A stretch of DNA of 36,929 nt, taken from Planctomycetaceae bacterium. GTDB lineage: Bacteria; Planctomycetota; Planctomycetia; Pirellulales; UBA1268. Positions within the stretch are counted from its first letter, which is position 1. Every line of letters starts with the position of its first letter. Shown in pieces: positions 14,599 through 36,929 of this stretch. The notes under the pieces were generated by a model that worked only from the letters and a program-made list of their open reading frames with translations, made no database searches and was not told the origin of the DNA. A program made the position numbers and the translations under genes. The stretch covers positions 1 through 36,929 of the forward strand of contig CANFQO010000028.1 of the NCBI GenBank assembly GCA_947449135.1, in the 5' to 3' direction.

Positions 14599-14695
14599 CT
14601 CTGATTGTCGACTGAAAAAGGCCGTCTGGTGCCGCGTTTCAATCTTTCCACGCAAATAGGGCGGATCCCCGGTACGCGGGTATTTCTAGGGCAGT

Positions 14696-15728: not shown

Positions 15729-16745
15729 TTACGGTGGATAGAGGCCCCACGTGATGCAGGTGGCCTTCTCGCTCGGCAGCCGAAACTTGTACGCCTGATC
15801 GCCCAGCCCAAGGTCGTAGGTGTGCATCCCTGCGTCCAGTGCCAGGAGCGTCGATTGCCGCAGGAGAACCTGGCCGGGCGATTGCTTGGCGTGCTCGAGA
15901 GCAAACACCCATAGGCCGGAGAATTGGGTCGATCGGTAATGCCAGTTCATGTCCATGCCGAGTGTGGCGCCGTTCCATTCCAGGCGGATGAACCGCAGCC
16001 AGCCGCGGTCTGCCGAGACCGCGACCCAGCGCTCCAGAAACTGGCGAACCTCCGGTCTCAGGAAGCCGCTCTCGATTCCTTTGAGCCGCCAACGGGCGAT
16101 GTGCATGTCGTAGAATTCAGGCAAAAGCGGCAGAACGTCCTTCGCCGTCGTGAGACGCTGGATGACGAGATCGCCACGCTGCCGGAATTGGTTTTCTGCT
16201 TTCCGCATCGAGCGGCTGACGGCCTGTCGCACTGCGGCGGGATCGGCGGAGATGTCGACCCTGACGGAATCGATGCTATTCATCTCGACGATATTGAGGC
16301 CGATGTGTTGTGCAGCGAGAGCGAGTGCCGGGCCAGTCTGGGAGCACTCGGGAACAAAATGCAGTTCGAATCCGAGGAAACCCGGGGCGCGATCCATTGC
16401 CGCTCGCATCAGCGCGGCCAGGATATCGGGGTCATGGCTGTCACCAAGGAAATTGTGCTGGTCTGCCTCTCCGACGCCCAGGAAATAGACCATTCCCGCT
16501 TCCGTGAAGAACGGCGCGATGCCAACGGGCGATTCATTACGGTCCGCGGCCAGAAGGATGAGACGCCCGCGGCAGAAGGTGTCGTACCATAGCCGCTGCC
16601 ATTCGAATGTCTGCGACACTGCTCGCGTGTCGCTCGCATCCAAGAGCCTTTCCCACACTGCGGGCAGGGCCGGGTCGTCAAAGGAAAGCTCGCGGACCGT
16701 GATTGGATGGTTCGCGTCGCCTCCGGCCGGGTGGCCGGCGCTCAT
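15729..16745 (-). CDS. CelD/BcsL-like GNAT acyltransferase
   Basis: A 338-residue protein matching the FemAB-related GNAT group often named CelD/BcsL (Acetyltransf_6). It has an N-terminal WERLLDASDTRAVSQTFEW, then a middle SVRVDISADPAAVRQAVSRSMRK and the helical FYDMHIARWRLKG. Late strands LRFIRLEWNGATLGMDMNW and TYDLGLGDQAYKFRL form the acyl-CoA-type fold. Relatives act in exopolysaccharide or cellulose loci and presumably acylate a sugar or lipid carrier. Its ATG overlaps the stop of the upstream ABC exporter as ATGA, so the two are translated together. Confidence 0.85.
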   Translation of the reverse strand: MSAGHPAGGDANHPITVRELSFDDPALPAVWERLLDASDTRAVSQTFEWQRLWYDTFCRGRLILLAADRNESPVGIAPFFTEAGMVYFLGVGEADQHNFLGDSHDPDILAALMRAAMDRAPGFLGFELHFVPECSQTGPALALAAQHIGLNIVEMNSIDSVRVDISADPAAVRQAVSRSMRKAENQFRQRGDLVIQRLTTAKDVLPLLPEFYDMHIARWRLKGIESGFLRPEVRQFLERWVAVSADRGWLRFIRLEWNGATLGMDMNWHYRSTQFSGLWVFALEHAKQSPGQVLLRQSTLLALDAGMHTYDLGLGDQAYKFRLPSEKATCITWGLYPP

Positions 16746-19113: not shown

Positions 19114-20118
19114 TCAGGGGATCAAATAACAGGCGGGAATGATTCCCCAGCGGGCGGCTTTCCGCTGCACGGTTTCTAGGTGGCTGCGTACGCGGGCCTC
19201 ATCGCGACCATCGGGGCTGCTGAAAATCCAGTGGTACGCCACGTAGAGTCGCGCGGCCAGCATGACATCGGCAAATCCTAAAGGAGGAGAGCCCTGCCAG
19301 CGTGCCTGCACGTATGACGCTTCCAGGGACCGCACATCCTCAAGGTCCCAATCGAACGTGAACAACGCGAGGTCGATCTCCGCCGGGCCCACTGCAGCGG
19401 TCTCCCAGTCGATCACCATGATACGACCGTCCGCCCACAGGGTGTTGCGAGTGGTCAATTCGCCGTGAATGATTGTCTGCCGCTGCCTCGTGAGGAGCGG
19501 AATGCGTTCTCGGTAGGCCGTGGCGACCTGGTCCAGCCACGGAAACTCGTGTGCCATTGGGCGGGCCAGTGCGCAGGTAAGGTCGAGCCAATGGGCGTAG
19601 TACGCCTCGTCGTACCGCGTCAGGAATCCCCAACTCGGCTCGGCCACCTGGGACTCTCCCCAGGCGTGAAACGCTCCCATCCAGCGGATCAATTCGGTCA
19701 GCCCGCCCTGCTCGCAGGCCTGCGCGGCGGTCATTCCGCCAGAGTAGAACCTCATCACGAATGCGAAGTCGCCGGTCTCATCGTCCGTGAAACTCCCCCA
19801 ATACCGCGGCAGCAATACGGAGTCATGCCTGACGAGAGACTCGTAGACCCTTGCCTCGTGAGCCAAACCCTGATGCGGTGAAAACGGGAGACGCTCGACC
19901 CCATGGCCATACTTGCAGAGCAGATGTTCGCGGGAGCCATCGGCGAACTCCACGCGGATCACGTCCGCTGGATATGTGCTCAGGCGTGGGCTGGTGCGAC
20001 GGTGCCTGACACGCAGCGGCCCGCGGGTAGCGATCTCCGTAGAAAAGACCTGCGAGAGCCCGCGAGAGAGCGATTGCCGGGAAGGTTTGGTAACCGAGTC
20101 TGAGAGCGGAGCTTCCAC
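19114..20118 (-). CDS. APH-fold phosphotransferase, paralogue 2
   Basis: A 334-residue APH-family kinase with a likely ATP lysine in HLLCKYG (Lys69). The Brenner loop is HGELTTRN (218-225), and IDWE (Asp237) is followed by TAAVGPAEIDLAL. Length and motif spacing equal those of the 14696-15700 gene, and QARW/QARG and AxLFxAxxW-type stretches also match near the C-terminus. It is the first gene of the minus-strand operon phosphotransferase, HEAT lipoprotein, ABC exporter, CelD-like acyltransferase. Start is GTG with AGAGG twelve bases upstream. It is divergent from the GT4 gene. Confidence 0.86.
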   Translation of the reverse strand: MEAPLSDSVTKPSRQSLSRGLSQVFSTEIATRGPLRVRHRRTSPRLSTYPADVIRVEFADGSREHLLCKYGHGVERLPFSPHQGLAHEARVYESLVRHDSVLLPRYWGSFTDDETGDFAFVMRFYSGGMTAAQACEQGGLTELIRWMGAFHAWGESQVAEPSWGFLTRYDEAYYAHWLDLTCALARPMAHEFPWLDQVATAYRERIPLLTRQRQTIIHGELTTRNTLWADGRIMVIDWETAAVGPAEIDLALFTFDWDLEDVRSLEASYVQARWQGSPPLGFADVMLAARLYVAYHWIFSSPDGRDEARVRSHLETVQRKAARWGIIPACYLIP

Positions 20119-20305: not shown

Positions 20306-21577
20306 ATGAGAATCTGCCTGGTATCGCAGGAGTATCCGCCGGAAACCGCCTGGGGAGGGGTCGGCACGCAGACATGGGTTAAGGCGCGGGCGCTTTCTCG
20401 CCAGGGGCACGAGGTGCATGTCCTCACCTGTTCGGCGGACGGTCAGCCTGATCTGCGGACCGAGATCCACGACGGCGTCACCGTGCATCGCATCCACCCG
20501 CCGGGCTACGAATTCCCGATCTACGGCAAGCCGCTGTGGCTGCTCGGCTACACGTGGGGGGTCGTTACCGCGCTGCATACATTGATGGAGCAGCACAGGT
20601 TCGACGTACTCGATTTTCCAGAGTTCGGCGGGGAGGGCTTCGCCTATCAGATCGACCGCACGCGGTGGAACTGGGTGCCGGTCGTCGTGCAGCTACACGG
20701 CCCCATGACGATGTTTCTCGACCTGCTCGGCTGGCCGGAGCGGGGCAGCCGGCTGCACAAGCTGGGCATGTTCATGGAGGAATTCTCACTCCAAAATGCC
20801 GACGCGATCATGGCCTGCAGCGGCGGCGTGGCCGACGTGGCCAGCCAGGCCTACGGCCTCGATCGGAACGCGATCGACGTGGTCCACTGCGGCGTCGACA
20901 CCGCACTCTTCTCGCCCGCGGCGGCCGGCAGCCCGCTCGCCGATCGGCCCACGGTGCTGTTCGTCGGAAAAATGGTGAAAAACAAGGGGCCGCTCGTCGT
21001 CACCGAGGCGGTCCTGGCACTGAGGCAGAAGTATCCGGACATCCGCCTGCAGTTCATCGGCACTGGCACCGACATCCCGCTCATGATCGAGGCCCGGGCG
21101 CGGGAGGAGGCTGCCGAGGCCAACATCGAGTTGCTTGGCTTTGTCGAGCTCGATCGCCTGCCCGACTACTACCGCCAGGCCCACGTCTTCTGCTCGCCAG
21201 CCGAATACGAAGGCTTCGGGCAGGTCTACACCGAGGCGTTGGCCTGCGGCTGTCCGGTCGTTGCCAGCACCTCGGGCGGTGGCAGCGAGGCGATCGACGA
21301 CGGCGTGACCGGCCTGCTCGTGCCTCCCAACGACGTGCCAGCGACGGTGCGGGCGCTCGACGCGATTCTGGGCGACCCAGCGCTCCGCCAGCGGATGAGC
21401 GAGGCCGGCCTCCGTCGCGTCGCCGACTACTTCTGCATGGAGCAATACATCCAGCGTGTGGTGGCCGTCTACGAGAAGGCGATCGCGATCTCCCATCAGC
21501 TCCCAGACGAATTCAAGGACCAGACCGATTGGCAGACGCCGCGGCGACCGTCCTCCACGGGAGACGAGTCGGCGTGA
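20306..21577 (+). CDS. GT4 glycosyltransferase
   Basis: A 423-residue GT-B enzyme of family GT4. The N-terminal domain opens with MRICLVSQEYPPETAWGGVG. The C-terminal nucleotide-sugar domain starts near VLFVGKMVKNKGP and has the EX7E region PAEYEGFGQVYTEALACGCP (about residues 297-316), followed by GLLVPPNDVPA. It is a retaining cytoplasmic transferase using a nucleotide-activated sugar; donor and acceptor cannot be read. The stop overlaps the next gene start as GTGA, coupling translation. It is divergent from the second phosphotransferase across a 187-base gap that probably holds both promoters. Confidence 0.94.
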   Translation: MRICLVSQEYPPETAWGGVGTQTWVKARALSRQGHEVHVLTCSADGQPDLRTEIHDGVTVHRIHPPGYEFPIYGKPLWLLGYTWGVVTALHTLMEQHRFDVLDFPEFGGEGFAYQIDRTRWNWVPVVVQLHGPMTMFLDLLGWPERGSRLHKLGMFMEEFSLQNADAIMACSGGVADVASQAYGLDRNAIDVVHCGVDTALFSPAAAGSPLADRPTVLFVGKMVKNKGPLVVTEAVLALRQKYPDIRLQFIGTGTDIPLMIEARAREEAAEANIELLGFVELDRLPDYYRQAHVFCSPAEYEGFGQVYTEALACGCPVVASTSGGGSEAIDDGVTGLLVPPNDVPATVRALDAILGDPALRQRMSEAGLRRVADYFCMEQYIQRVVAVYEKAIAISHQLPDEFKDQTDWQTPRRPSSTGDESA

Positions 21578-22704
21578 AGCAGGCGAGGCACTGCCGCATT
21601 CCCGAAGGGCCGCACGACCTGCGCCGGCTCTGGAGCGAGGCCACGCCGCTGGCGGGTCGCCCGCTGCCCGACTGGCTGGCAGCCGAGGATGCCGACGACT
21701 ACCGCTGGCTGGGCAGCGTGTCGCTGGCCGGATTGTCTGACGAGGAGCGTGGCCAGGCGGAGGATGAGTGTGGCGAACTGGAACTGGCGAGGCTCGTTGT
21801 CGATGACGATCCGTTGGAAGGGCAGTTGCGCCATGTCTATATCAACCGGCCGCGGCCAGAGCCTGTCTGGAGCATTGGCATCCACGAGGGAGATGCGCCG
21901 TGGTCGTTATCGGATCGGCCACAGGAAAACCCGGTGCTCACCGCGGCGAGCGTCACCGATGTGCCGGCGACATCGGTTGCCGATCCATTTCTTCTCTTCA
22001 GGGACGGTCGCTGGTTCATGTTCTTTGAGGTGGTGAACTGGTGGACGTGGAAGGGCGAAATCGGCCTGGCCACGAGCGGCGACGGTCTTGCCTGGCGCTA
22101 CGAGCAGATCGTGCTGACCGAGCCCTTTCACCTCTCGTATCCCTATGTGTTCGAGGCCGACGACTCCATCTATATGATCCCGGAGACTTCGCAGGCTGAA
22201 GCGGTGCGGCTTTATCGGGCCACACGATTCCCGACGGAGTGGGAATACGTTGGCGACCTGCTCCAGGGCCTTCCGTTTGCCGATGCGTCGGTCGTCCGGC
22301 ATCAGGGCCGCTGGTGGCTGTTCGCGGAGACGAGTGGCGACCGCAACGACACGCTCCGGCTCTATCATGCCGACGCCCTCGCTGGCCCCTGGCAGGAGCA
22401 CCCGCAGAGCCCCGTGATTCAGGGTGACGCGGAAAACGCCCGGCCGGCTGGCCGGATCGTCGCAGCCGGTGGTCGTCTGCTCCGCTTCGCCCAGAACTGC
22501 AGGCCCGCCTACGGCACCGACGTGCGAGTGCGGGAGATCGTGCGGCTGACCACGTCCGAGTTTGCCGAGCAGCCGCTGGGCGCGGGGCCTATCCTTGGGC
22601 CCGCTCGGGCCGGCTGGAATGCGGGTGGCATGCACCACGTCGATCCGCTTCAAATTCCAGACGGCCGCTGGGTGGCTGCCGTCGACGGCTGGCGGATGGA
22701 GTAA
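21574..22704 (+). CDS. GINT1-like beta-propeller (glycan transfer) protein
   Basis: A 376-residue protein. After a charged 100-residue N-terminal part, residues from about 130 read VADPFLLFRDGRWFMFFEVVN, then SYPYVFEADDSIYMIPET and DASVVRHQGRWWLFAET. These repeated blades match the five-bladed propeller domain found in bacterial homologues of plant glucosamine inositolphosphorylceramide transferase (GINT1) N-termini. Its GTG overlaps the GT4 stop, with GGGAG about ten bases upstream, so the two are made together and may act on one glycan. An open frame reaching back to 20536 is out of frame with the GT4 gene and is not the start. Enzyme activity is not established. Confidence 0.72.
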   Translation: MKQARHCRIPEGPHDLRRLWSEATPLAGRPLPDWLAAEDADDYRWLGSVSLAGLSDEERGQAEDECGELELARLVVDDDPLEGQLRHVYINRPRPEPVWSIGIHEGDAPWSLSDRPQENPVLTAASVTDVPATSVADPFLLFRDGRWFMFFEVVNWWTWKGEIGLATSGDGLAWRYEQIVLTEPFHLSYPYVFEADDSIYMIPETSQAEAVRLYRATRFPTEWEYVGDLLQGLPFADASVVRHQGRWWLFAETSGDRNDTLRLYHADALAGPWQEHPQSPVIQGDAENARPAGRIVAAGGRLLRFAQNCRPAYGTDVRVREIVRLTTSEFAEQPLGAGPILGPARAGWNAGGMHHVDPLQIPDGRWVAAVDGWRME

Positions 22705-24621: not shown

Positions 24622-24742
24622 GTAAACAGACCTCCAGCCGAAGACAGCAGCCACCAAATCGTTGACCCAGGACAGTAGCAGAACTTATAATCAACCACTG
24701 TGTTTCACGCCAATCGGCGACTCCCCAGCAGGCGCCCGCACG

Positions 24743-25712: not shown

Positions 25713-26783
25713 TCACTCAGGTCGACACTGCGGCGACAGCCCCGCGAGCATGTCCGTGGCAATGTCAATCGCCTCGGCAGGCGTGTTCGCGAACCGAACG
25801 AGCTGCGTTTCGTGGCTTTCCGGTGGACGAATCCAGGTATCGCGGTAGGCGAAGACCTTGCCATTGGAGGTGTCGCAGACCACATGCGGCAGCCCCATCA
25901 TCGTGCAGAGCAGGTGCGCGTGCAGCCGGTTGGTGATCACGACGCGGCCGCGGGCGAGGATGCGGCAGCCACGCAGTGTGCGGTCTTCAGCCAGCTGGTC
26001 CCAGAGCCATGGCATGTGCCGCCAGGCCAGACGTCGCCTGAGTGGGCACGGCTCGCCGCTGGCCGGCGGCTTGCCAACCCATTCCTTAAAAGATCTGGCG
26101 GCGGTGGTGAGCTGACGAGCCTCCTCGGCCGGCAGGACGCCGCCCTGCAGCGTCCAGTCACGCGAGATCCAGCCGTCGGGAAGTGGGGAAAGAACGGCCG
26201 ATGATTCCGCGTCGTTCCTCCAGAGCGCCATCACCGGCACGTCGGCCGTTCGATCGACGGCCGGCAGCTCCAGAGCCAGTGCGGCGTCGGGGCAGAGTGA
26301 GGTTGCCGTCGACGGGAAATGCTCCTGGGCCAGCGCGAGGCTCGCCTTATCGCGGACGAGGAGCGTGAAGTCGCGCCGGTAGGCCAGGAGCGAAGACATG
26401 TCATCGAGGGCCGCCGGTGATCGAAACCAGATGCTCTGCGGCAATTGAACGATCTTCCGGTCAGGGAAGTCTTCCAAGACTCGCAGCCGCAGTCCCTGCT
26501 CTCGGCCGTAGGCATCGCCAAAGTTTCCGCCCCCGAGCAGCAGGATCGGTCCCTCGGGCAGGGCCGTCCGCAGCCGACGGGGATCGTAGCTCCAGGGATC
26601 GCAGGCGTAGTCGACGACGACGCCCAACCGATCGAGAAGCATGCGTGTGCCCCACCAGATCGCCGAATCCCCCGTGTTCCAATGGTCGGGGTACATCACC
26701 AGGCCGCAGCGAGTGCCCCGTGGCAGCAGGCTGGCCACGGTGTTTGTCAGGATGCGTGTCGCTTCGGCATGCATGGAATTCAT
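25713..26783 (-). CDS. Polysaccharide pyruvyl transferase family protein
   Basis: A 356-residue protein with the pyruvyl-transferase signature. It has an N-terminal LVMYPDHWNTGDSAIWWGT, then ILLLGGGNFGDAYG, a VRDKASLALAQ segment, and the C-terminal VVITNRLHAHLLCTMMGLP followed by DTSNGKVFAYRDTW. These enzymes transfer pyruvate from phosphoenolpyruvate onto a sugar as a ketal, adding negative charge to a surface glycan. It is the last gene of the minus-strand series running from 30819. The start may also be the ATG three codons further in. Confidence 0.92.
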   Translation of the reverse strand: MNSMHAEATRILTNTVASLLPRGTRCGLVMYPDHWNTGDSAIWWGTRMLLDRLGVVVDYACDPWSYDPRRLRTALPEGPILLLGGGNFGDAYGREQGLRLRVLEDFPDRKIVQLPQSIWFRSPAALDDMSSLLAYRRDFTLLVRDKASLALAQEHFPSTATSLCPDAALALELPAVDRTADVPVMALWRNDAESSAVLSPLPDGWISRDWTLQGGVLPAEEARQLTTAARSFKEWVGKPPASGEPCPLRRRLAWRHMPWLWDQLAEDRTLRGCRILARGRVVITNRLHAHLLCTMMGLPHVVCDTSNGKVFAYRDTWIRPPESHETQLVRFANTPAEAIDIATDMLAGLSPQCRPE

Positions 26784-26890
26784 CGCGTCTTCATGTCGCC
26801 GCAGGCGGTCCTAGAGTCACTGGGGGCAGATGCTCGGGAAAGCTACAGAATACCCTCCCGTGCTACCGTGCTTATCGGGAGCCTGACGCG

Positions 26891-27715
26891 TCAATGCAGC
26901 CCGGCGTCTGCGGGCGAACGGATCTCGGGAAAAAATCGCTGCATGAGAGGCCCGCAATGCGTGTTCACCTGCTCCTGCAGGTGCGCGACCGGGATCTCTT
27001 GCACGATACGTTGCTTACTGGGATTGCGATACTCGTGGATGCCGCCCGTTGCGATCTGCGCAGGGCCAAACCCACCGAAGGCCGCAATCTCGAGGGCACG
27101 GTCTGCAATCTGGTCGGTACGGACGATCAACAGCCGATCAGCGGGCACCGACGCAATCGCCTTCGACACATGGGCGGTCCAGTACGATAGGTATCCGGCC
27201 AGCGTGTAGAGACCCTTCTCTTCGAGGATCTGTTCTGCTGTCGGGTAGGAGAACTGCCCCCTCTGAAATCGCCAGTCCGCAAACGCTCTCCAGGCGGCCG
27301 TCGGTGGGATCCGTAGGTAGTGGTTGAGCAGGGAGTCGAGCCACGAATAGCAGTCGCGAATCGTGAGGACGAACCGTGAGTCGGGGCTCACGTGCAGCAG
27401 CAGGTCGACGAGGAAAATGTTGAAGTTTGCGACATCGACCGACAGTGCCAGCCTCCGGTCGCGGTCGAGCACGAGCGTCTGCAGGGATCGCCAATCGCTC
27501 CGCCCTCCGGCGTAGTCGAGCACCGCGTGAATGACGGGCTCCGGCTCCGGCTCATGGGCGGTGGGGACTCCAGTGAAGAGGCTGGCCAGAGCGCTCGTGC
27601 CGCTCTTGCCTGTGCCGATGCCGTAGAGCCTCGGTCTCGCCGCCACCGGCGTCGGCCATGTAGCCGCCAAGCGTCGGCTGGCGGCTATCTCTTCGGGAGT
27701 GAGGCCGATTCTCAA
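26891..27715 (-). CDS. Sulfotransferase family protein (A)
   Basis: About 274 residues. The 5'-phosphosulfate loop is YGIGTGKSGTSALASLF (about 31-47), and RFVLTIRDCYSWLDSLL is the 3'-phosphate-binding block with Arg and Ser, the PAPS-binding pattern. It should move sulfate from PAPS to a hydroxyl on a glycan or other acceptor in the cytoplasm. The frame is open to a TTG at 27796 inside the upstream gene. The TTG at 27715, five bases after that gene's stop with GGTGAT before it, seems a better start, but neither is ATG. It is distinct in sequence from the other three sulfotransferases here. Confidence 0.82.
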   Translation of the reverse strand: MRIGLTPEEIAASRRLAATWPTPVAARPRLYGIGTGKSGTSALASLFTGVPTAHEPEPEPVIHAVLDYAGGRSDWRSLQTLVLDRDRRLALSVDVANFNIFLVDLLLHVSPDSRFVLTIRDCYSWLDSLLNHYLRIPPTAAWRAFADWRFQRGQFSYPTAEQILEEKGLYTLAGYLSYWTAHVSKAIASVPADRLLIVRTDQIADRALEIAAFGGFGPAQIATGGIHEYRNPSKQRIVQEIPVAHLQEQVNTHCGPLMQRFFPEIRSPADAGLH

Positions 27716-27719
27716 GAGA

Positions 27720-28859
27720 TCACCGTGACCGGTCTTGATGGCTGCTTTGCCGCGACAGGCATTCGTCGATGACCGAAACCACGTCGGCCCGTCCAAGATT
27801 GTTGGCGCGATCCCGCATCTTCCGATACATCCGCTTCACTGGCTCGCGATCCGACCAGAGGTCGCGGAGGGTGGCCATGGAGAACTCGCCGGCCGGAAAG
27901 GTACGGGCGCGCTCGCGGGCCCCTGCCATGTCAAGCGCGAGTAGCGTCCGGAAGCACTTTTCGCAGGCACCGCAGTTTCGCTCTGAGGCATCCCGCCAGC
28001 AGACGTGGAGGTGATTGATCGCCACGTCGGACGATGCGAGGAACTCGATCTTGCGCAGCCGGTCGCTGCCCGCCCCGTAGTGCCACACCCGCGTGGCTGA
28101 GGTCGAGCACAGCGGGTCGGTCAGGCACGTCGATCCCCACGGATCGAACTCGTCGTAGGCAACGGCGGCGGAGAGGAGCAACGTGTCCCACCGGTGCCCC
28201 AGAAGAAGACCGCTGGCGGCCACGGCAGGGCCGTGCACTATCGGGCCCCAGGTGTTTTTTCGCAGGCTGAGGCCCGTGTCGCGGAAGTTGGTAGCGAGTG
28301 TGATGAGCGTTTTGCCCGTTTCCTGTGCGACCGATTCGAGCGCCGCGCGCTTATGATCGAGCGAGCCCCGATTCCCAAGGGGAATGTCGTAGCCCTCGAC
28401 GTAGATCAGGTCGTCGATCGGCCGAAGATTCCACTCCGGATGCAGGCGTGCCATCTCGTCGTGGTGCAGCAGCGAAAAAAAGGAGTCGACGCCCGCGGTG
28501 AAAAACAGGCCCGTCCGCGATCCCTGCGGCTCGGACTCACCTGCCGGGTCGGCCGTCACTCGCACGGGGCTCTTGCCCGGACGCCAGCAGGCCCACACCT
28601 CCATCAATTCATGTGCGTTTCGCAGTAGTTCGGCGTCGACGGGCCCTTCGAGGACGAGATCCTCGCCGGTCTCGAAAGCGTGCGGCAGGAGCCAGAGGAG
28701 CCAGGCGTCGAGGCGTTGGGTTGCGTCGGCCGCGAACGCCTCCGGGACGTCGACCCACAGCACCTCGTCGTCGGCGCTGCCGGCCCCGGTGATACGTCCG
28801 GAAAGTCTCACGTGTCCAGGCTGCAGCCCAGCGTCGCGGGGCAGCGTCGTCAATCGCAT
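27720..28859 (-). CDS. PP-loop ATPase-like protein (QueC/Asn-synthetase-like fold)
   Basis: A 379-residue protein with a PP-loop variant TAGVDS (121-126; the usual form is SGGxDS) after a beta-rich 115-residue N-terminal domain. The middle has IYVEGYDIPLG and the TNFRD region expected of a HUP-type nucleotide fold. A Cys cluster follows (Cys287 in HVCW, then Cys296, 299 and 302 in CGACEKC), resembling the zinc site of QueC-type enzymes. Members adenylate a carboxylate or similar group using ATP. It sits 34 bases after one sulfotransferase and directly before another, so it belongs to this operon. Substrate unknown. Confidence 0.8.
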   Translation of the reverse strand: MRLTTLPRDAGLQPGHVRLSGRITGAGSADDEVLWVDVPEAFAADATQRLDAWLLWLLPHAFETGEDLVLEGPVDAELLRNAHELMEVWACWRPGKSPVRVTADPAGESEPQGSRTGLFFTAGVDSFFSLLHHDEMARLHPEWNLRPIDDLIYVEGYDIPLGNRGSLDHKRAALESVAQETGKTLITLATNFRDTGLSLRKNTWGPIVHGPAVAASGLLLGHRWDTLLLSAAVAYDEFDPWGSTCLTDPLCSTSATRVWHYGAGSDRLRKIEFLASSDVAINHLHVCWRDASERNCGACEKCFRTLLALDMAGARERARTFPAGEFSMATLRDLWSDREPVKRMYRKMRDRANNLGRADVVSVIDECLSRQSSHQDRSR

Positions 28860-28893
28860 GGTGGTGCCTGACCGAATCTCAGGGGAATGCAGG

Positions 28894-29577
28894 CTAGAAA
28901 CGAAGTGAAGGATCGTAGCCGAACAGCTCGAAATCCTTCACGTGGAGCTTGTGCAGGTAGTCGTAGTCGGCCTCGCCGGAGAGAAACTCTGCATGTCGGG
29001 TCCGCACCGTCGATGCGTTGTGCCTCTCGAATGGCTCCAGGTTGATGCCGATACGATGGGAAATCGTCCTCCTCGCCGCATCCAGATTCTCGAAACGTCC
29101 CACGAAATCGACGATGCAGCGGCCGTCGTCGTCGCAGCTCCACTCGACCTGCGGTCGGCCACCCAGCGACTTACGGAACTGCTCGTGACGGATGAACCCC
29201 GAAAAACCCCGCGACTCGCGGAAAGCGGTCGCCACTGGCCACGACCATTCAGTCGCGTCTGGCGGGGCGTTCCGGAGCGTCTTGTGGAGCCACGTGTAGA
29301 GCGACACGATGCGGTCGTAGGGATGCCTGACCAAGGTAAAAGTGAAATAGGATGACCAAACGTCAGCCCCTACCATGGCGCGAATCTCGCTGGCGGTCGA
29401 GTGCTTGTGCAGGCCGAAGCGTTCCCTGAAGGCGGGCTGAATCTGCTCGCCGAACCGCGTTCCGCCGATGGCGACGTCGTTCCATCGCAAGCATGGATCA
29501 ATCGCCGCCGATACGCTCGTCCCGGCCGTCTTCATGACGTGGACGAAGATGAACTTGTGGCTGTTGGATATGATCAT
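28894..29577 (-). CDS. Sulfotransferase family 2 protein (B)
   Basis: A 227-residue protein close to the carbohydrate (heparan/chondroitin-type) sulfotransferase-2 family. KFIFVHVMKTAGTSV (8-22) is the 5'-phosphosulfate loop and TLVRHPYDRIVSLYTW (81-96) the 3'-phosphate block; GRFENLDAARR is the usual C-terminal feature. The eukaryotic counterparts act on polysaccharide chains, so an acidic glycan acceptor is likely (inference). It lies 34 bases before the PP-loop gene and 81 bases after the glycosyltransferase gene on the same strand. Confidence 0.9.
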   Translation of the reverse strand: MIISNSHKFIFVHVMKTAGTSVSAAIDPCLRWNDVAIGGTRFGEQIQPAFRERFGLHKHSTASEIRAMVGADVWSSYFTFTLVRHPYDRIVSLYTWLHKTLRNAPPDATEWSWPVATAFRESRGFSGFIRHEQFRKSLGGRPQVEWSCDDDGRCIVDFVGRFENLDAARRTISHRIGINLEPFERHNASTVRTRHAEFLSGEADYDYLHKLHVKDFELFGYDPSLRF

Positions 29578-29658
29578 CGCCGCTCATAGTCTGGGAGGCT
29601 TCCATGCTACCACCGGCAGCGGACGGAATCGTCGGCTGCCGGACGGTCCTGCCGTCCC

Positions 29659-30819
29659 TTAGCCTGCCGCCAGGATCGCGTCGATCAGGGGGGGCAGCAC
29701 GCGGCGGGAGTCGAAGTGGTTCTCCGCGATCTCCCGGGCCTGGCGGCAGTGCCGTGGGTAGTCGGCGTTGATGGCGTCGATGGCAGCCAGAATGTCGTCG
29801 GTGGTGGCGAAGCCAAAGAGTCCCGCTCCGGTCGGCAGCCGCGACCCAAAGCCGGTGTCATGGGCGATCACGGGCCGGCCCGAGGCCAGGTAGCAGACAC
29901 TCCGGTCGCTGAACCAGCCGCATCGCGAGAGCACGTAGCCGCTCTTGGCGATCGCGAGTTCAGCCTTTGAGCCCTGCACGAACCGCTGGTAGTCGGCCGG
30001 CGTGCCACAGTGCTCGGCGGGATTAAGCAGCTGCCAGCCGGCATCGCGAAGGGCCGCCAGATCGTTGACCTCGTCGGGATGGATTGCGAGCGACGGCAGG
30101 CACTTTTCTGTGGTGAGCGTCGGCATCGCCATCAGCTCCCGCCAGGCGTGGGCCTTCTGGCCGTGGAAGATCCCGTCGTGCGTCACCGAGCCGTAGCTCC
30201 GCCAGTGGGCCACGGTGGTGAGGCCGTTGTGCACGATCTCGGTCGCCACGGGCCAGCGATCCAGCACGACCGGCTGCGGCGTGACGATCCATTGGCGGCC
30301 GCAGGTGGGCACGGTGCAGCCGGGGTGGCCGATGTTCCAGGCGATCGTGGCAAAGTGGGAATGCCTGTCGAAGCCCATGTCGATTCCCTGCGCCTGCCAC
30401 ATCTGGTTGAAGGCTGGATCGAGGTCGAGGAACACCCGCCGGGGCACCGGATCGGTCAGGGCTGGGTCACGGAGCATGCCCGAAATGTTGAGCAGGATGT
30501 CGGCGCGACCGGCGCGGCGAGCCAGTTCGTCGTGTGGCACTTCGACCGTCGCCGTGCTGCCCGACCGCACGAGGGCGGCAGAGCCCTCCAGGCCGAAATC
30601 GGCGACGAGCCGGCGGAAATACGCCGCCGCATCCGACGCCGCAAAGGCTGCGTCTGTCTGCTCGACCGGCACGTTTACAGGCTCGACGAGCGTGACTTCG
30701 TGCCCGAGCGCCCGCAGGCCGAGCACGTATTGCAGCACGGCACACGCCGCGCCTCCCTGGCCGGGCTGACCGGCGACCATCCCGGCGATCAGGATCGAGA
30801 TTCGGTCTGTCGTGCCCAT
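29659..30819 (-). CDS. GT-B-like glycosyltransferase, paralogue 1
   Basis: A 386-residue protein of a glycosyltransferase-like family that occurs three times in this window. The N-terminus has ISILIAGMVAGQPGQGGA and GLRALGHEVTLVEP, a GT-B donor-domain look. The middle has FATIAWNIGHPGCTVPTCG. The C-terminal domain has GWFSDRSVCYLASGRPVIAHD (near residues 295-315), then YPRHCRQAREIAENHFDS. The Asp-Arg-Ser-x-x-Tyr-Leu-Ala block with nearby Gly/Pro/Val fits a nucleotide-sugar site. It heads the minus-strand operon and is divergent from the sulfatase. Donor sugar unknown. Confidence 0.82.
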   Translation of the reverse strand: MGTTDRISILIAGMVAGQPGQGGAACAVLQYVLGLRALGHEVTLVEPVNVPVEQTDAAFAASDAAAYFRRLVADFGLEGSAALVRSGSTATVEVPHDELARRAGRADILLNISGMLRDPALTDPVPRRVFLDLDPAFNQMWQAQGIDMGFDRHSHFATIAWNIGHPGCTVPTCGRQWIVTPQPVVLDRWPVATEIVHNGLTTVAHWRSYGSVTHDGIFHGQKAHAWRELMAMPTLTTEKCLPSLAIHPDEVNDLAALRDAGWQLLNPAEHCGTPADYQRFVQGSKAELAIAKSGYVLSRCGWFSDRSVCYLASGRPVIAHDTGFGSRLPTGAGLFGFATTDDILAAIDAINADYPRHCRQAREIAENHFDSRRVLPPLIDAILAAG

Positions 30820-31070
30820 GATGTCAGGCTGGATGGCCTGATCCGCAAAACGTGAAGTGCCTCGACATCATAATCGTTGGGCAGGCATAAAAACGGCGAA
30901 AAGATCGGCCATTCGTGGCCTGCTGAAGTGGAACTATAGATGCATATTACAGCATTGTCGAAGCTACGGCGTGCGCAGTAGATTGTGTTTTGCGAAGGCG
31001 TTTGCCACCCTATTGCCTGCAAAGCCCACGGAAACCGCGACCTTGTGACAGCTTTCTTTCCGTGAACCAA

Positions 31071-32522
31071 ATGACACGATACGCATCGCTGGTTGCCATC
31101 CTGCTCTTGTCGTCGCTGCCATCCCCGCGGGCCACCGGGGCACAGGCTGACAGGCCCAACGTCCTTGTCATATTGTCCGACGACCACAGCGCGGCACACG
31201 TCGGTTGTTATGGTAATCCTGACATCAAAACGCCGAATCTGAATGCGTTCGCCGCCAGTGGTTTGCGGTGCGACAGAGCCGACGTCACCTGTCCCCAGTG
31301 CGTGCCGTCGCGGGCCAGCATCCTCACGGGGCGGTCGCCGGTGTCGATCGGCATGACGCGGTTTTCAGCCCCGTTGCCCCGCGACGTGCGAACGTTTCCC
31401 GAGCTTTTGCGGGTGGCAGGCTGGTTTACCGGAGTGGCTGGCCGCACGTACCATTTGGACGGCTCGCCTAATTCACCGGAGTCACGTGCCGTATTCGAAA
31501 AGCATGGGATGGTCACGTTCGTCGACCGCTTCGACTTTGTGAAGAAGGCTGGCGACAACGCCACGTCGTTGACTCAGTTCCGCGAATTCCTGGACCTGAA
31601 GCCACGGGAAAAGCCATTCTTCCTTCAGCTTTGCTCCGCCGACCCTCACCGGCCGCTTGCCGAGTGCGGCCCGGAGAAACATGATCCGTCCGCAATCACG
31701 TTGCCGGCGCACTACCCCGACACGCCGCTCGTGCGGGAAGACTTTGCGAGGTACTATGACGAAGTCTCGCATCTCGATGTCTTCTTTGGCGATGTCGTGG
31801 CCGAGTTGGAAAGACGGGGCTTGGCCCAGAACACCATCGTAGTCTTCATGGGAGACAACGGTGCCTCGCAGTTGCGCGGCAAGGGCACGCTCTACGAGTT
31901 TGGCATTCGCGTGCCGTTGCTGATCCGGTGGCCGGCGAAGATCAAGCCCGGCTCCGTCGCCGCCGAACTGATCAGTGGCGAGGACATCGCGCCGACAGTG
32001 CTGGAAGCAGCCGGCATTCCCGTGCCGCCCGATATGACTGGCAAGAGCTTCGTGAAGCTCTTGCATGGCGATGCGCACGAGCACCGGGAGTATGTCTTCG
32101 CCGAACGCGGCGCGCACGCCAGCAGTCTGCCGAACGGCAGTGCGTCGTTTGACCTGGGCCGCGTTGTTGTATCGCCGACTCACAAGCTCATTTACAACGT
32201 GACTTGGCAGTTGCCTTATCAGCCTGTCGACTTTAAGGGAGACCATTTTTGGACCGAACTGAAGCAACTCCACAGGGATAAAAAGCTGGATGACAGGTGG
32301 GAAAGCCTCTATTTCTCGCCCACGCGGGCCATGTTCGAACTGTACGACCTGCAGGCCGATCCAGCGGAGCTGAAAAATCTTGCTGGTACTCCTGCCGCGG
32401 CCGTGGTCGAGGGCAAGCTGAAGGCCGCGTTGCAGGAGTGGATGATTCTTGAACGAGACTTCGTGCCCCTGCCAGTCGCACCGGAAGCCATGGCCGGTCA
32501 GGGTGACGAGGGCAAGGGCTAG
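31071..32522 (+). CDS. Type I sulfatase, exported
   Basis: A 483-residue alkaline-phosphatase-superfamily sulfatase with signal peptide (MTRYASLVAILLLSSLPSP, then ATGAQA). Metal ligands LSDDHS (Asp37, Asp38) and GDNG (Asp262, Asn263) are present, and CVPSR (77-81) gives the Cys that is oxidised to formylglycine. The C-terminal YDLQADPAELKNLAG is typical. It resembles heparan-N-sulfatase-like planctomycete enzymes and cleaves sulfate esters or sulfamates outside the cytoplasm. Sitting divergently among four sulfotransferases, it may trim the same glycan. A formylglycine-generating enzyme is not in the window. The start could also be a GTG at 31062. Confidence 0.93.
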   Translation: MTRYASLVAILLLSSLPSPRATGAQADRPNVLVILSDDHSAAHVGCYGNPDIKTPNLNAFAASGLRCDRADVTCPQCVPSRASILTGRSPVSIGMTRFSAPLPRDVRTFPELLRVAGWFTGVAGRTYHLDGSPNSPESRAVFEKHGMVTFVDRFDFVKKAGDNATSLTQFREFLDLKPREKPFFLQLCSADPHRPLAECGPEKHDPSAITLPAHYPDTPLVREDFARYYDEVSHLDVFFGDVVAELERRGLAQNTIVVFMGDNGASQLRGKGTLYEFGIRVPLLIRWPAKIKPGSVAAELISGEDIAPTVLEAAGIPVPPDMTGKSFVKLLHGDAHEHREYVFAERGAHASSLPNGSASFDLGRVVVSPTHKLIYNVTWQLPYQPVDFKGDHFWTELKQLHRDKKLDDRWESLYFSPTRAMFELYDLQADPAELKNLAGTPAAAVVEGKLKAALQEWMILERDFVPLPVAPEAMAGQGDEGKG

Positions 32523-32540
32523 CCGGTAGTCGCCATTGGC

Positions 32541-33215
32541 TCAGGCCTCGGCACGGGGTGGGGCATCGCGACGGCTCATCCGCTGGATGTAGGGCTGGCC
32601 GCCGAAGTCGGGCAGGAATCGCTGCTCGCGGAGCTTGCGAAACACAAGGGCTTTTCCACCCTCGAGCGTCTGAACGAGTTCGAAGCCGGGATCCTCCTGA
32701 AGAAAGCGGGCCAGCTCGCCCACCGAATGCAGCTGGATATCGTCCACCAGGAGCAGGCCGCGCGGCCTCAGGATCGCGTGGAGGTAGCAGAAGTCGACGA
32801 ACACGGTCGGCCAGCCGTGACCGCCGTCGATGATGCCGACGTCGAACCATGTGTCGGCGGCGATCTCGCGGGCGGCCAGAGGGGGCAGCGCCACCTCCGA
32901 CCGCTCGATGCACGGCGTCAGCGACGTGGTGGAAATCCCACGAGAATCACAATAGGCCAGGATGCGGTCGAACAAATCCTGGCGAGGTGCGATCGAAACC
33001 AGTTCGGCGGGCTGGGCGAGCAGCATCGCGATCGTGGTGTTGCCGGCGCCGGTCTCGCAGATGCGCGGCCGTTCGCCGGCCTCACGGAGTACGAGCGCAT
33101 GAAGCTCGCGGAGCGATGGGCCCGAGAAGCCACCCGTGTTCCACTGCTTCTGGTTCGGCCAATAGTGGAGAAGCGGTGGGTCGGCAAAAAATACCTCGAT
33201 TGCAGGTGTTGTCAT
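32541..33215 (-). CDS. Class I SAM-dependent methyltransferase
   Basis: A 224-residue methyltransferase of the Methyltransf_24-like type. RICETGAGNTTIAMLL is the SAM-binding glycine motif, ELVSIAPRQDL the acidic/second strand region, and FDVGIIDGGHGWPTVFVDF the catalytic-strand region, followed by LLLVDDIQLHSVGELARF. Relatives methylate sugars or other small acceptors in polysaccharide and antibiotic clusters. The ATG at 33215 with GGAG eight bases upstream is preferred over an open frame to 33281. It is convergent with the sulfatase. Confidence 0.87.
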   Translation of the reverse strand: MTTPAIEVFFADPPLLHYWPNQKQWNTGGFSGPSLRELHALVLREAGERPRICETGAGNTTIAMLLAQPAELVSIAPRQDLFDRILAYCDSRGISTTSLTPCIERSEVALPPLAAREIAADTWFDVGIIDGGHGWPTVFVDFCYLHAILRPRGLLLVDDIQLHSVGELARFLQEDPGFELVQTLEGGKALVFRKLREQRFLPDFGGQPYIQRMSRRDAPPRAEA

Positions 33216-33523
33216 CGACGTATCTCCGTGCAGACGACAGAGGGCATGGCTCAGGGTGTCATCGAAAAACCATGCGGTCATTCAGCAGTTGGCGTTCTGC
33301 TTGCGGCCACGTGCAACGAGGCAGCATTGTACCGTGATTCATGGGCCCGTCCCGCCCACGCACGACGGGCCAGTCTGATCATGTCTCTTGCGAGGAATCC
33401 AGGAGGCGTCTGGTAGACTGGCAAAGATACGCCACCACCGAGCGGTTGTTGGGGTGAACTTCCTGGTAATCATTCTGGTAATCCTCCTGGCAATCTCAGC
33501 TTACCGAAACGGAGTGACGGATC
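33216..33523. other. Divergent intergenic region with a 12-base tandem repeat
   Basis: No ordinary gene. Three imperfect 12-base units follow each other: ctggtaatcatt, ctggtaatcctc, ctggcaatctca (33463-33498). A short frame from GTG 33454 to TAA 33558 reads hydrophobic through them (LVIILVILLAIS) and enters the sulfotransferase gene. The region lies between the methyltransferase and sulfotransferase C and should contain their promoters. Confidence 0.4.
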
Positions 33524-34303
33524 GTGTGCCTCTCATACGCCTACTTCGGACACCATAAGTGCGCGACGCAATGGATTCAGGACATTGTGCGCGATGTTTG
33601 CGCGGAGCTGGGGCTCCGCCAAACGATTTACAACAGCCCGCGGGAGTTTGGCGACGACCTGCCTGCTGCGCTCCGAACCAGTCCGACAGACTTCCTCTGC
33701 TATCCGAATGCCGTAGCGCATCACGTCTCAGTTCTGTCCGGATACCGAGCATTTCATGTCGTTCGAGATCCTCGCGACATCATCGTGTCGGCATATTTCT
33801 CCCATAAACATTCCCATCCGCTGCCGAACCCCAGCGCAGGAGTCAGTTGGTTGACGGCGGACTATCGCCGAACGCTCCAGGAGGTCGATCCGGAAGCCGG
33901 ACTGCTGATGGTGCTGGAGAGACGAGCACATCAATTCGATCAGATGCTGAAATGGGACTACGGACAGCCGCACATCAAGGAAGTCCGGTTTGAAAATCTC
34001 ACGACTGATCCGGTAGATGAGTTTCGCGGTATTTTCCAGCACCTCGGGCTTCTCGACACAACCTCACCGACGAACGGAACGGTGCTTCCAGGCGAACTTC
34101 TCGACAGCATCCTGTGCCGGCACAGTTTCGCCAGCAAGTCGCATGGCCGCATGCCCGGCGAAGAGGACCCGACGGCTCACTATCGAAAGGGAATGCCCGG
34201 CGACTGGAAAGCCCACTTCACTCCTGCACTCGTCGCACGTTTCAAGGCACGGCACAACGATCTTCTCGTCACGCTTGGCTACGAGAAGAATGCCGACTGG
34301 TGA
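33524..34303 (+). CDS. Sulfotransferase domain protein (C)
   Basis: A 259-residue protein of the sulfotransferase-1 type. FGHHKCATQWI (8-18) is the 5'-phosphosulfate loop with Lys12. HVVRDPRDIIVSAYFSH (78-94) is the 3'-phosphate block with Arg81 and Ser89. HYRKGMPGDWKAHFTP near the C-terminus is the classic RKGxxGDWK motif. The full set supports an active PAPS-dependent enzyme. GTG start with GGAG about ten bases upstream. The 3' end overlaps sulfotransferase D by 35 bases in convergent orientation. Acceptor unknown, glycan likely from context. Confidence 0.9.
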   Translation: MCLSYAYFGHHKCATQWIQDIVRDVCAELGLRQTIYNSPREFGDDLPAALRTSPTDFLCYPNAVAHHVSVLSGYRAFHVVRDPRDIIVSAYFSHKHSHPLPNPSAGVSWLTADYRRTLQEVDPEAGLLMVLERRAHQFDQMLKWDYGQPHIKEVRFENLTTDPVDEFRGIFQHLGLLDTTSPTNGTVLPGELLDSILCRHSFASKSHGRMPGEEDPTAHYRKGMPGDWKAHFTPALVARFKARHNDLLVTLGYEKNADW

Positions 34304-35054
34304 ATGACGGCACAGGTCGATCCGCGATCCGGCGAGCCAGCTGCGTCACGCGGGTGAGCGCATCGTGATCGGCCGCGGCCGTGATGAACGCCACGTCCTC
34401 GGCGGTGAGTCTCTCCGCGCCAGCACCGGGCTTGGGTTGGCTCTCCAGCCGTGCCTTGTTCTTCCAGCCGGTTCGCAGCGGCTCTGGATCGATGCCGAGA
34501 AACGCCGCCACGCCGTCCACCGTTGCTTCTGAGGCAACGAGGTCTTCATAGAAAACGGGTAGGATCGGCGCGACGTCGGCGTACGCGAGGATTGCCTTGA
34601 GGGAGGCGTTCCAATGCTCGACCGCTATCCGCGGACCCCAGTCAGGATTCCAGTCCGCCACGTCACGTTTCCGCGACTCGTAGCTCGCCGCGACGTCGAA
34701 CACGTTGCGGACGAGACAGATGAAATGGACGTCCGGAAAGTGGGTGACGAGGTGGTCGAAGCACTCGTATCCGCGTGGCACCTTGTCGCCGACGTAAGCG
34801 GCCGAGTCGTAATGCGCCTCGGCACGCCGCTGTCGCCAGGGGAAGTGCGACAGGTCGTCATACCAGGTGTCGCCGGTTTCCATGCGGAAAAATCGCTCTC
34901 GTTCAAAGTCGGTGGGCATGAGCGCGCGGGCGAATAGCCGCAGATTAAACCGCTCCGTGCCCAACGCGATCGCCGGATGCCAAACAAGGATGGCTTGGAA
35001 GTAGCTCGTGCCGCTCCGCGGGCACCCACAGACGAAGAGGAACTTTTTGTTCAT
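34269..35054 (-). CDS. Sulfotransferase family protein (D)
   Basis: A 261-residue protein. FLFVCGCPRSGTSYFQAIL (5-23) is the 5'-phosphosulfate loop in the Sulfotransfer_3-like form CPRSGTS, and HFICLVRNVFDVAASYESR (110-128) the 3'-phosphate block with Arg116. It ends with a polar tail encoded in the overlap with sulfotransferase C. GAGG seven bases before the ATG lies just past the glycosyltransferase stop (nine-base gap), so it is the third gene of an operon with the two glycosyltransferases upstream. Confidence 0.88.
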   Translation of the reverse strand: MNKKFLFVCGCPRSGTSYFQAILVWHPAIALGTERFNLRLFARALMPTDFERERFFRMETGDTWYDDLSHFPWRQRRAEAHYDSAAYVGDKVPRGYECFDHLVTHFPDVHFICLVRNVFDVAASYESRKRDVADWNPDWGPRIAVEHWNASLKAILAYADVAPILPVFYEDLVASEATVDGVAAFLGIDPEPLRTGWKNKARLESQPKPGAGAERLTAEDVAFITAAADHDALTRVTQLARRIADRPVPSFTSRHSSRSQA

Positions 35055-35063
35055 GGTCCATCC

Positions 35064-36224
35064 TCACCCAGTTCCGGATGAACCCGCATCAAGGCCCACA
35101 TCACCAAGCAGACGGTTGAGAACGCGGCTGGACTCAAAGTGCTCAGCGGCCAGATTGCGGGCCGCGGCGGAGTGCTGGGCGTAGCGGGCCAGAATGTCCT
35201 CGGCGCCGGCGGCGGCCTCGTCGGGCGTGCGGAATGTCACGATCCCCTCGCCACTGGGAATCGTCACAAGGCCCGTGTCCTGCACGAGCACAGGCCGGCT
35301 GCTGGCAAGGTAGCGGGTGCTGCGGTCGCTGAACCAGCCGCTCCGGGCGTGGGCGTAGACGCCCTGGGCGACGGAGAACTCAGCGGCGGAATCCTGGATG
35401 TATTTCTGGAACGACTGGGGAGTGCTTACGGTCTCGGCGGGAGGGACGAGCCGCCAGCCGTGCGACGTAAGCGCCTCGCGGTCGCGCCCGTCGCCCTCGT
35501 GAATGTCGAGCGCGATCTCAAACTCGGCTGGGACGCGCTCTGGCAGGTGAAAGACCTTGCGGAATTCGTGCAGCTTGAGGCCGTACGTGGTGCCCTCCCA
35601 GGCGACTGCGCCGAATCCGCACCGCCAACTGGCGATCGTGGTGAACCGGCGGAGTGACGACGCGGGACCGCCTGGTGACGGGGCGGCGGGCCAGAGGTCG
35701 AGTAGCAGCGGCTGCCGCGTCGGCTTCCACGGCAGGCCGCCTGTGGGGATCGGGCATCCGGGCGTGCCGATATTTTCCCCGATCGAGAAATAGTGGTCGT
35801 GTTGGGGCACGGCGTAGCGTGTTGCCGGATCGGCGTGCCAGATCTGCGTAAAGCCAGGGTCGACGTCGACGTAGGCGGTGGTGCCGACCGCCTCAAAGAC
35901 TTCCGGCACGCTGAGGTTGCCGCTCAGGTTCACGAGCAGGTCGCTTGCCGCCGCAAACTGCCGCAGGTCGTCCCATGATCGCCCACGGGTCCAGTCGCTC
36001 GTGCGATCGAGAATCGCTGTCCTCTGCTCGAATCCGAAGAAACGTGCACACTCGGCAAACCAGTCGAGGGCCGCGGCCGACGGGACGCCGACACACTCTT
36101 CGACGAAGAGCACGTCGAAGCCGAGTTGCCGCAGGCCTACGGCCCAGCTGAACCGCTCCCACGCGCCCCCCGCGTTGCCGGGCTTGGCGGCGAGCGGTCC
36201 CGAGACGATGGCTTTGCGGTTCAT
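35064..36224 (-). CDS. GT-B-like glycosyltransferase, paralogue 2
   Basis: A 386-residue paralogue of the gene at 29659-30819, identical in length. Shared features are the start KAIVSGPLAAKPGNAGGAW and GLRQLGFDVLFVEE, the middle NIGTPGCPIPTGG, and the C-terminal GWFSDRSTRYLASSRPVLVQDTG and AAEHFESSRVL. Like paralogue 1 it has a conserved central PLLLDLWP/PVVLDRWP-type stretch. Its ATG overlaps the stop of paralogue 3 as ATGA, and it is followed by sulfotransferase D. The tandem arrangement suggests successive sugar additions or a heteromeric pair. Donor not known. Confidence 0.82.
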   Translation of the reverse strand: MNRKAIVSGPLAAKPGNAGGAWERFSWAVGLRQLGFDVLFVEECVGVPSAAALDWFAECARFFGFEQRTAILDRTSDWTRGRSWDDLRQFAAASDLLVNLSGNLSVPEVFEAVGTTAYVDVDPGFTQIWHADPATRYAVPQHDHYFSIGENIGTPGCPIPTGGLPWKPTRQPLLLDLWPAAPSPGGPASSLRRFTTIASWRCGFGAVAWEGTTYGLKLHEFRKVFHLPERVPAEFEIALDIHEGDGRDREALTSHGWRLVPPAETVSTPQSFQKYIQDSAAEFSVAQGVYAHARSGWFSDRSTRYLASSRPVLVQDTGLVTIPSGEGIVTFRTPDEAAAGAEDILARYAQHSAAARNLAAEHFESSRVLNRLLGDVGLDAGSSGTG

Positions 36225-36929
36225 GCGAGCACGTCGTCAAGGAAATGTGTCAGGACACGGTCGGAGTCGAAATGAGCCTGAGCGATCTCGCGGGCGGCGC
36301 GGCAATGCCGCGGATAGTCGGCGGCGATGCTCAAGGCGCCGGCCGCGGCCTCGTCGAGCGTGGTAAAAGTTAGCAACCCCTCGCCACAAGGGTAGAGATT
36401 TCCGAGGCCCGTGTCCCGGGCGAGGACCGGCCGGCCCGTGGCCAGGTAATAGCAACTGCGGTCGCTGAGCAGACCGCTGGCCGTGTCGACGTACATCTGC
36501 TTCGGCACCATGAATTCCGCCTTGGAGCCGGCGATGTAGTCGTGGTAGAGGCGGGGGCTCCCGGCCGCGGCGACCGGATCAACGAGCCGCCAGCCATGGC
36601 TGTGCAGAGCCGCGATGTCTTTGGCGTCGCCCGGATCGATCGCGAGCGCCTGCTCGAAGGTTTCGCCGGGGCAGCAGCCCGGCAGCGCAAGAAACTTCCG
36701 AAACTCGTGGCACCGTAGGCCGTAGAGGTGCCCGTGATACTCCACCGGACCGTTCGGCCCTCGCCAGGCGCCGATGCCGGTGAAGGCCCCGGTGGGCCGT
36801 GGCGGCGATACGGGCCAGTGCTCGAGTACGACCGGCTGGGGCAGCGAGGTCCAGGCGAGGCCGCAGGTCGGCACGCTGCAGCCGGGCTGGCCGATGTTTC
36901 GGGCCAGCGTGGCGAAGCGGTTGTGGCCG
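36221..36929 (-). CDS. GT-B-like glycosyltransferase, paralogue 3, 5' end missing
   Basis: The frame continues off the right edge. The visible 235 residues start at HNRFATLARNIGQPGCSVPTCG and correspond to the C-terminal two thirds of paralogues 1 and 2. They include PQPVVLEHWP, the ASGLLSDRSCYYLATGRPV block and AAREIAQAHFDSDRVL. It is closest to paralogue 1 in the DYPRHCRxAREIA region. A GTG at 36874 is internal, not the start. It shares an ATGA overlap with paralogue 2, so three genes (paralogue 3, paralogue 2, sulfotransferase D) form one transcript. Confidence 0.82.
   Translation of the reverse strand, partial: GHNRFATLARNIGQPGCSVPTCGLAWTSLPQPVVLEHWPVSPPRPTGAFTGIGAWRGPNGPVEYHGHLYGLRCHEFRKFLALPGCCPGETFEQALAIDPGDAKDIAALHSHGWRLVDPVAAAGSPRLYHDYIAGSKAEFMVPKQMYVDTASGLLSDRSCYYLATGRPVLARDTGLGNLYPCGEGLLTFTTLDEAAAGALSIAADYPRHCRAAREIAQAHFDSDRVLTHFLDDVLA

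Follow-up and report, generated by a model that had tools for sequence, protein, structure and literature searches.

Here we present a locus in a Planctomycetaceae genome that probably directs the assembly of a surface polysaccharide, either a capsule or an exopolysaccharide, and that carries a sulfation and pyruvylation module among its glycosyltransferase genes. The window, by which we mean the whole stretch of DNA analysed (36,929 nucleotides), is the complete contig C28 of a 3.69 Mb genome assembly in 169 contigs, and would hold the left part of this locus (Table 1). We infer that the locus makes a surface glycan, and that the sulfotransferases (STs) encoded beside the glycosyltransferases (GTs) act on it.

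By open reading frames and Pfam searches, every gene named in an earlier sequence-only reading of this DNA was recovered in its place. Its four sulfotransferases of distinct PAPS-loop type fall into four different Pfam families, with all four loop strings present; the pyruvyl transferase, methyltransferase and secreted sulfatase that it listed match PF04230, PF13578 and PF00884; and the profiles it had proposed for checking (PF00685, PF03567, PF13469 and PF04230) matched ST1, ST2, ST3 and the pyruvyl transferase, respectively. Its gene list stands for the genes named, but overlooked one of QueC type. The tight minus-strand operons it described are present as two runs, GT-ST2-QueC-like-ST4-pyruvyl transferase and GT-GT-ST3, in which sulfotransferases are interleaved with glycosyltransferases in the same direction, but the plus strand carries the PF00685 sulfotransferase and the sulfatase, which are outside both runs.

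Table 1. Genes of the locus and its left flank in the window, with the evidence for each assignment
Feature	Position	Strand	Evidence
APH-like kinase	14696..15700	+	PF01636; related genes in loci of G048, G015, G046
GNAT/FemAB-like acyltransferase (PF13480)	15729..16745	-	Pfam
ABC exporter, fused membrane and ATPase domains, candidate flippase	16742..18547	-	PF00005 and PF00664
Second APH-like kinase	19114..20118	-	PF01636 7.4e-16
GT4 glycosyltransferase	20306..21577	+	PF00534 7.1e-37; orthologs in loci of G046, G048
GINT1_N-domain protein, probable glycan enzyme	21574..22704	+	PF24793 8.6e-63; follows GT4 also in G046, G048
Polysaccharide pyruvyl transferase (PF04230)	25713..26783	-	Pfam 1.9e-25
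ST4 sulfotransferase (PF17784), GTGKSGTS loop	26891..27715	-	Pfam 27.7 bits against a cut-off of 22.8
QueC-type ATP-pyrophosphatase	27720..28859	-	Cys motif alignment; AF2 model; Foldseek
ST2 sulfotransferase (PF03567), MKTAGTS loop	28894..29577	-	Pfam 7.6e-16
GTa glycosyltransferase paralog (GT-B, GT4-like)	29659..30819	-	Alignment with paralogs; relatives in all five other loci
Secreted formylglycine-type sulfatase	31071..32522	+	PF00884 7.3e-47; CVPSR
SAM methyltransferase (PF13578)	32541..33281	-	Pfam 6e-7
ST1 sulfotransferase (PF00685), HKCATQW loop	33524..34303	+	Pfam 1.5e-12
ST3 sulfotransferase (PF13469), CPRSGTS loop	34269..35054	-	Pfam 8.5e-21
GTb glycosyltransferase paralog	35064..36224	-	AF2 pLDDT 94.5; Foldseek to BshA/GT4, E 6.8e-9
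GTc glycosyltransferase paralog, C-terminal part	36221..36929	-	Paralog alignment; cut by contig end

Glycosyltransferase paralogs and a second contig

The three glycosyltransferases read earlier as paralogs are indeed so, with a mutual identity of 36-50%, the third being truncated by the end of the contig. They have almost no Pfam match. An AlphaFold model built from 27 relatives has a GT-B fold, whose best matches in the PDB by Foldseek are BshA and other UDP-bound GT4 enzymes (E 6.8e-9, TM about 0.6), and judged by this predicted fold all three are glycosyltransferases.

The gene for GTc is split, with its C-terminal part on C28 and its N-terminal part very probably on another contig of the same assembly, C53, and neither part has another copy or partner in the genome. 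The last 324 bp of C28 and the first 324 bp of C53 are 89.8% identical, as overlapping versions of one GT gene, and 22 of the 33 mismatches fall at third codon positions; an exact overlap between the two contigs was sought and not found. The order WbsX-GTc-GTb across the two contigs is that seen in relatives. Because of the gene overlap, the want of any other partner for the two halves and this gene order, we read C53 as very probably carrying the locus on, in an assembly that would contain strain differences. It encodes a WbsX protein, a sulfotransferase, a GT4-WbsX protein, a GT2 protein, a second sulfotransferase, a GT4-GT2 protein, a further GT paralog, YdjC and another GT2 protein; both of its sulfotransferases belong to PF13469 and stand among the WbsX, GT4 and GT2 genes. 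The combined locus spans about 28 kb and holds six sulfotransferases.

In the mechanism that we propose, the chain would be built in the cytoplasm by the GT-B paralogs together with the WbsX-type and GT2/GT4 multidomain enzymes, and would then be decorated by up to six PAPS-dependent sulfotransferases, the pyruvyl transferase and the methyltransferase, each decorating enzyme probably serving one residue or position.

Sulfotransferases and their neighbours in relatives

The curated Pfam cut-off is passed by all four sulfotransferases of the window and by both on C53. In each window enzyme the 5'-PSB loop is followed downstream by a 3'-PB-like segment (RDPRD, RHPYD, RDCYS and RNVFD), the forms in ST3 and ST4 being divergent. 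ST1 carries the SULT-type RKGMPGDWKAHFT, and its RKG..GDWK..FT segment aligns with the same segment of SULTs; ST3 has weak similarity to tyrosylprotein sulfotransferases, and a sequence search found no solved relative of ST2 or ST4. ST4 is also matched by PF13469, below the cut-off, and its start was moved to a TTG at 27715 (the earlier ORF ran 26891-27796), which gives a protein of 274 aa beginning four bases past the preceding stop. No sulfotransferase or glycosyltransferase had an NCBIfam equivalog above the cut-off. The locus offers, across four families, candidates for bacterial polysaccharide sulfotransferases.

Sulfotransferases alone do not make the locus special, since those of PF13469 are common in the family, with a profile search finding them in 67 of 72 genomes. 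Their clustering is far above chance. Profile searches with PF13469 and PF03567 found 12 sulfotransferases genome-wide, five of them inside the 27.7 kb locus (0.75% of the genome) against 0.09 expected (binomial p = 1.8e-8); ST4 was left out of this count because PF17784 was not searched across the genome. Contig C45 of this assembly encodes a sulfotransferase fused to a WbsX glycosyltransferase, which lends independent support to the view that sulfotransferases serve glycan assembly. Their donor can be made, as APS kinase is encoded twice, on other contigs of the genome. PAPS is also produced for sulfate assimilation.

Among the 72 family genomes, the GT family was found in six, the window's own included, with several copies in each, clustered on one or two contigs. 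In the loci of relatives the genes are not scattered, and the synteny comparison that the sequence-only reading had called for came out in favour of linkage: glycosyltransferases and sulfotransferases lie together and are conserved as one unit. The locus of G048 holds four sulfotransferases, namely an ST2 that adjoins the QueC-like gene as it does in the window, a Stf0 sulfotransferase and two of PF13469; that of G015 holds a pyruvyl transferase and four sulfotransferases, namely ST4, ST2 and two of PF13469. The sole PF03567 gene of G048 and the sole one of G015 both lie in this locus. The pyruvyl transferase, whose best solved relative is Pyruvyl transferase 1 (5ax7, 2e-34), has orthologs in the same locus of both genomes, adjoining the ST4 ortholog in G015 and GTa in G048. 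No PF13469 or PF03567 match was found on the locus contigs of G046, G040 and G041; in G046 the available sequence runs from the GT4 gene to a contig end within the last GT2 gene, and in G040 and G041 contig ends truncate the locus. With four sulfotransferases in each of G048 and G015 and none seen on these three sets of contigs, the GT core persists while the sulfotransferases vary. Relatives of ST1 turned up in five further genomes of the family, but never on a contig of a GT-core locus, so the linkage of ST1 is not conserved.

These data bear on the alternative that some or all of the sulfotransferases have small metabolites or lipids as acceptors and stand among GT genes by chance. ST1 has the features of SULTs, whose cytosolic members act on small molecules, and PF13469 enzymes occur throughout the family's genomes; against this stand the enrichment in the locus, the conserved pairing of sulfotransferases with glycosyltransferase, pyruvyl transferase and QueC-like neighbours, and the ST-WbsX fusion, and we regard this alternative as very unlikely. 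The best reading, on which sulfotransferases of the locus modify its glycan, is that the sulfation and pyruvylation module is exchangeable, an optional cargo on a recurring GT core. The core is widespread; the sulfation module would come and go from one lineage to another.

With one genome per species scanned, the glycosyltransferase is encoded at 278 places, from which 72 loci were kept, assigned by record title to Planctomycetota, Actinomycetota, Verrucomicrobiota, Chloroflexota, Gemmatimonadota, Acidobacteriota, Cyanobacteria and others. By single-sequence searches, which may miss divergent genes, at least two GT paralogs are present in 61 of the 72 loci, YdjC in 30, an APH-like gene in 24 and ST-like ORFs in nine, G048 and G015 being among the nine. 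The tally of ABC genes lumps different ABC types together and is left aside. In an Antarctic Chloroflexi MAG, five PF13469 ORFs follow one another within a related cluster. Record titles naming Loclat, LaPlata and DEBay suggest fresh or brackish water for some of the relatives.

The QueC-type gene, the sulfatase and export

The QueC-type protein between ST4 and ST2 belongs to no Pfam family, and no solved relative was found by sequence, so that its assignment needed a fold search. Its AF2 model (pLDDT 91.7) has QueC 3bl5 as its best Foldseek match (probability 1.00, E 3.5e-3). The published QueC signature combines a C(x)8CxxCxxC zinc motif with SGGxDS (PMC13329287). The window protein shares with QueC (PF06508; PMC13329287) this zinc motif, the position of the PP-loop and the fold, and its C-x8-C-xx-C-xx-C cysteines (C287, C296, C299 and C302) are invariant in the 23 sequences aligned. 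Unlike QueC, it has an extra N-terminal domain, a glycan-locus context and a degenerate PP-loop, TAGVDS, which is SGGVDS-like in most of the 23 relatives; because of this loop, and because no PF06508 match was found at E up to 10, we describe it as having a QueC-type fold and do not file it as QueC. Relatives occur in 21 of 294 genomes of the phylum, the window's own included; in two of the loci compared they clearly adjoin a pyruvyl transferase, with a weak case in a third locus. The O-antigen N-sugar amidotransferase WbpG has been placed among the clusters of the wider QueC family (PMC13329287). Our guess from the modelled fold is that the QueC-type enzyme may use ATP to activate the carboxylate of a sugar, for instance in the amidation of a uronic acid, and it would perhaps be a further decorator of the chain.

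The sulfatase had been taken for the locus' own, a claim that our analysis does not support. Moving its start from 30990 to 31071 gives a signal-peptide-like N terminus, its CVPSR lies at residue 104 of the ORF and together with PF00884 gives the C-x-P-S-R signature of S1 sulfatases, and its best solved relative is the S1_8A sulfatase 9bb9. With this catalytic motif and N terminus, and a position between two locus genes at gaps of 170 and 18 bp, the enzyme could be an integral part of the system and remodel the same glycan extracellularly. We consider this unlikely. The gene is on the opposite strand, has no ortholog in the loci of any of the five relatives (those of G048, G015 and G046 contain no sulfatase), and has its closest family relatives, at 43-45% identity, in five genomes without the GT core; the genome holds about 24 sulfatases, and the chance of one falling in the span of the locus is about 0.17. 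Its membership of the glycan system is therefore doubtful. Of the glycan bearing sulfate, pyruvate and methyl groups that the sequence-only reading had envisaged, an assembly locus with several sulfotransferases, a pyruvyl transferase and a methyltransferase is supported, with linkage that recurs in relatives; the part given to the sulfatase is not.

The left flank adds the genes listed first in Table 1, from the APH-like kinase to the GINT1_N-domain protein. A tRNA-Ser gene, conceivably the boundary of an island, lies at 14517-14599. The ABC exporter may move the product out of the cell. Among the genes checked, none was recognised as Wzx, Wzy, Kps or an initiating transferase. The locus could instead make a protein- or lipid-bound glycan, such as an S-layer or stalk glycoprotein or a glycolipid, with the sulfotransferases decorating a short oligosaccharide rather than a free polysaccharide. 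That no polymerase was identified among the genes checked, that the exporter has fused domains like flippases of single oligosaccharides, and that the many distinct glycosyltransferases suggest a non-repetitive oligosaccharide all point this way; no oligosaccharyltransferase was seen in the window, however, and the assembly is so fragmented that missing genes mean little. We hold this alternative possible, if on the unlikely side, and prefer a surface polysaccharide as the product.

Known sulfated glycans and the place of planctomycetes

In the open-access literature searched we found no description of planctomycete sulfotransferase loci; there, planctomycetes are known mainly for removing sulfate from algal glycans. 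A survey of microbial mats found a sulfotransferase gene in only some planctomycete MAGs, by BLAST cut-offs stricter than the profile search used here.

Clusters in Cobetia, Vibrio and Synechocystis combine glycosyltransferases, ABC or Wzx/Wzy export and sulfotransferases (PMC11766843, PMC11641403, PMC13125312). That for the sulfated capsule of Cobetia marina KMM 1449 resembles the window locus in its glycosyltransferases, sulfotransferase and ABC transporter, and Cobetia clusters also hold a pyruvyltransferase, as here; it differs in specifying a Group III capsule and including PAPS genes, whereas the locus described here has its PAPS genes elsewhere, another GT family, six sulfotransferases and a QueC-type gene (PMC11766843). 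The 80-gene cluster of Vibrio sp. KMM 8419 is alike in its glycosyltransferases, ABC transporter and three sulfotransferase genes, and the absence of a sulfotransferase gene from a sister strain resembles the sulfotransferase exchange at the window locus, but it comes from a marine gammaproteobacterium, has different glycosyltransferases and includes PAPS biosynthesis genes (PMC11641403). The synechan (xss) cluster of Synechocystis likewise joins exopolysaccharide machinery to sulfotransferases, and loss of one of its two, xssA, abolishes the polymer; it differs in its dedicated XssQRS regulation, its glycosyltransferases and its two sulfotransferases against six here (PMC13125312). Within the PVC superphylum, Pontiella sulfatireligans F21 has a putative sulfated glycosaminoglycan cluster with a PF13469-type sulfotransferase among GT2 and GT4 genes, and a sulfated GAG-like polymer was measured in this strain; it differs in its one sulfotransferase, and the portion of the account drawn on here reports no pyruvyl transferase or QueC-like gene (PMC7356697). 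By these analogies the window locus resembles known sulfated-capsule systems and differs in its GT family, the number of its sulfotransferases and its QueC-type partner.

More speculatively, and with rather low confidence, we suggest that some Chloroflexota and some planctomycetes, several of the latter from lakes or estuaries to judge by their record titles, may produce multiply sulfated surface glycans. These would share a GT-family backbone not described before, and the pair of QueC-type enzyme and PF03567 sulfotransferase would carry out a likewise undescribed glycan modification such as uronic acid amidation. An assembly locus with several sulfotransferases would make some planctomycetes producers of sulfated glycans. 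The same GT core in close relatives with and without sulfotransferases provides a natural comparison, in which the role of sulfation is directly testable.

Genes bordering the sulfotransferase locus

The GT4/GINT1 genes are separated from the sulfotransferase locus by a pair of genes, overlapping by 4 bases, for a CotH-kinase protein and a DUF4956 membrane protein; this pair was not found among the 72 wider glycosyltransferase-encoding loci. At the edge of the locus lies the gene for a DUF1559 pilin-like protein; in two genomes of the family, G040 and G041, close relatives of this protein are likewise encoded beside the locus. Immediately left of the glycan-type flank genes is a tRNA-Ser(GGA), which could mark an island boundary.

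Coordinates of the features discussed
Feature	Position
tRNA-Ser(GGA)	window 14517-14599
CotH-kinase/DUF4956 pair	window 22721-24657
DUF1559 pilin-like protein	window 24662-25666
Contig-end overlap	window 36606-36929; L031:1-324
Tandem sulfotransferases	L077:2823-8959
Three-sulfotransferase cluster	L178 (G011:C3:50000-69900)
Fusion ORF, 1024 aa	L179:4477-7548 (-)
PF13469 sulfotransferase domain	residues 39-236 of fusion ORF
WbsX glycosyltransferase domain	residues 591-929 of fusion ORF

Contig end and other sulfotransferase genes

The window and its presumed continuation, L031, overlap at their ends with an identity of only 89.8%, a sign of strain mixture within the assembly. On contig C45 of the same genome, one ORF joins sulfotransferase and glycosyltransferase domains. 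G011, of the same genus and without the glycosyltransferase core, carries a cluster unlike the window's, with three sulfotransferases amid GT2/GT4-type genes. In an Antarctic Chloroflexi MAG (QHBP01000308.1), five PF13469 sulfotransferase ORFs stand in tandem within a locus of glycosyltransferase paralogs that also holds APH-like and YdjC genes.
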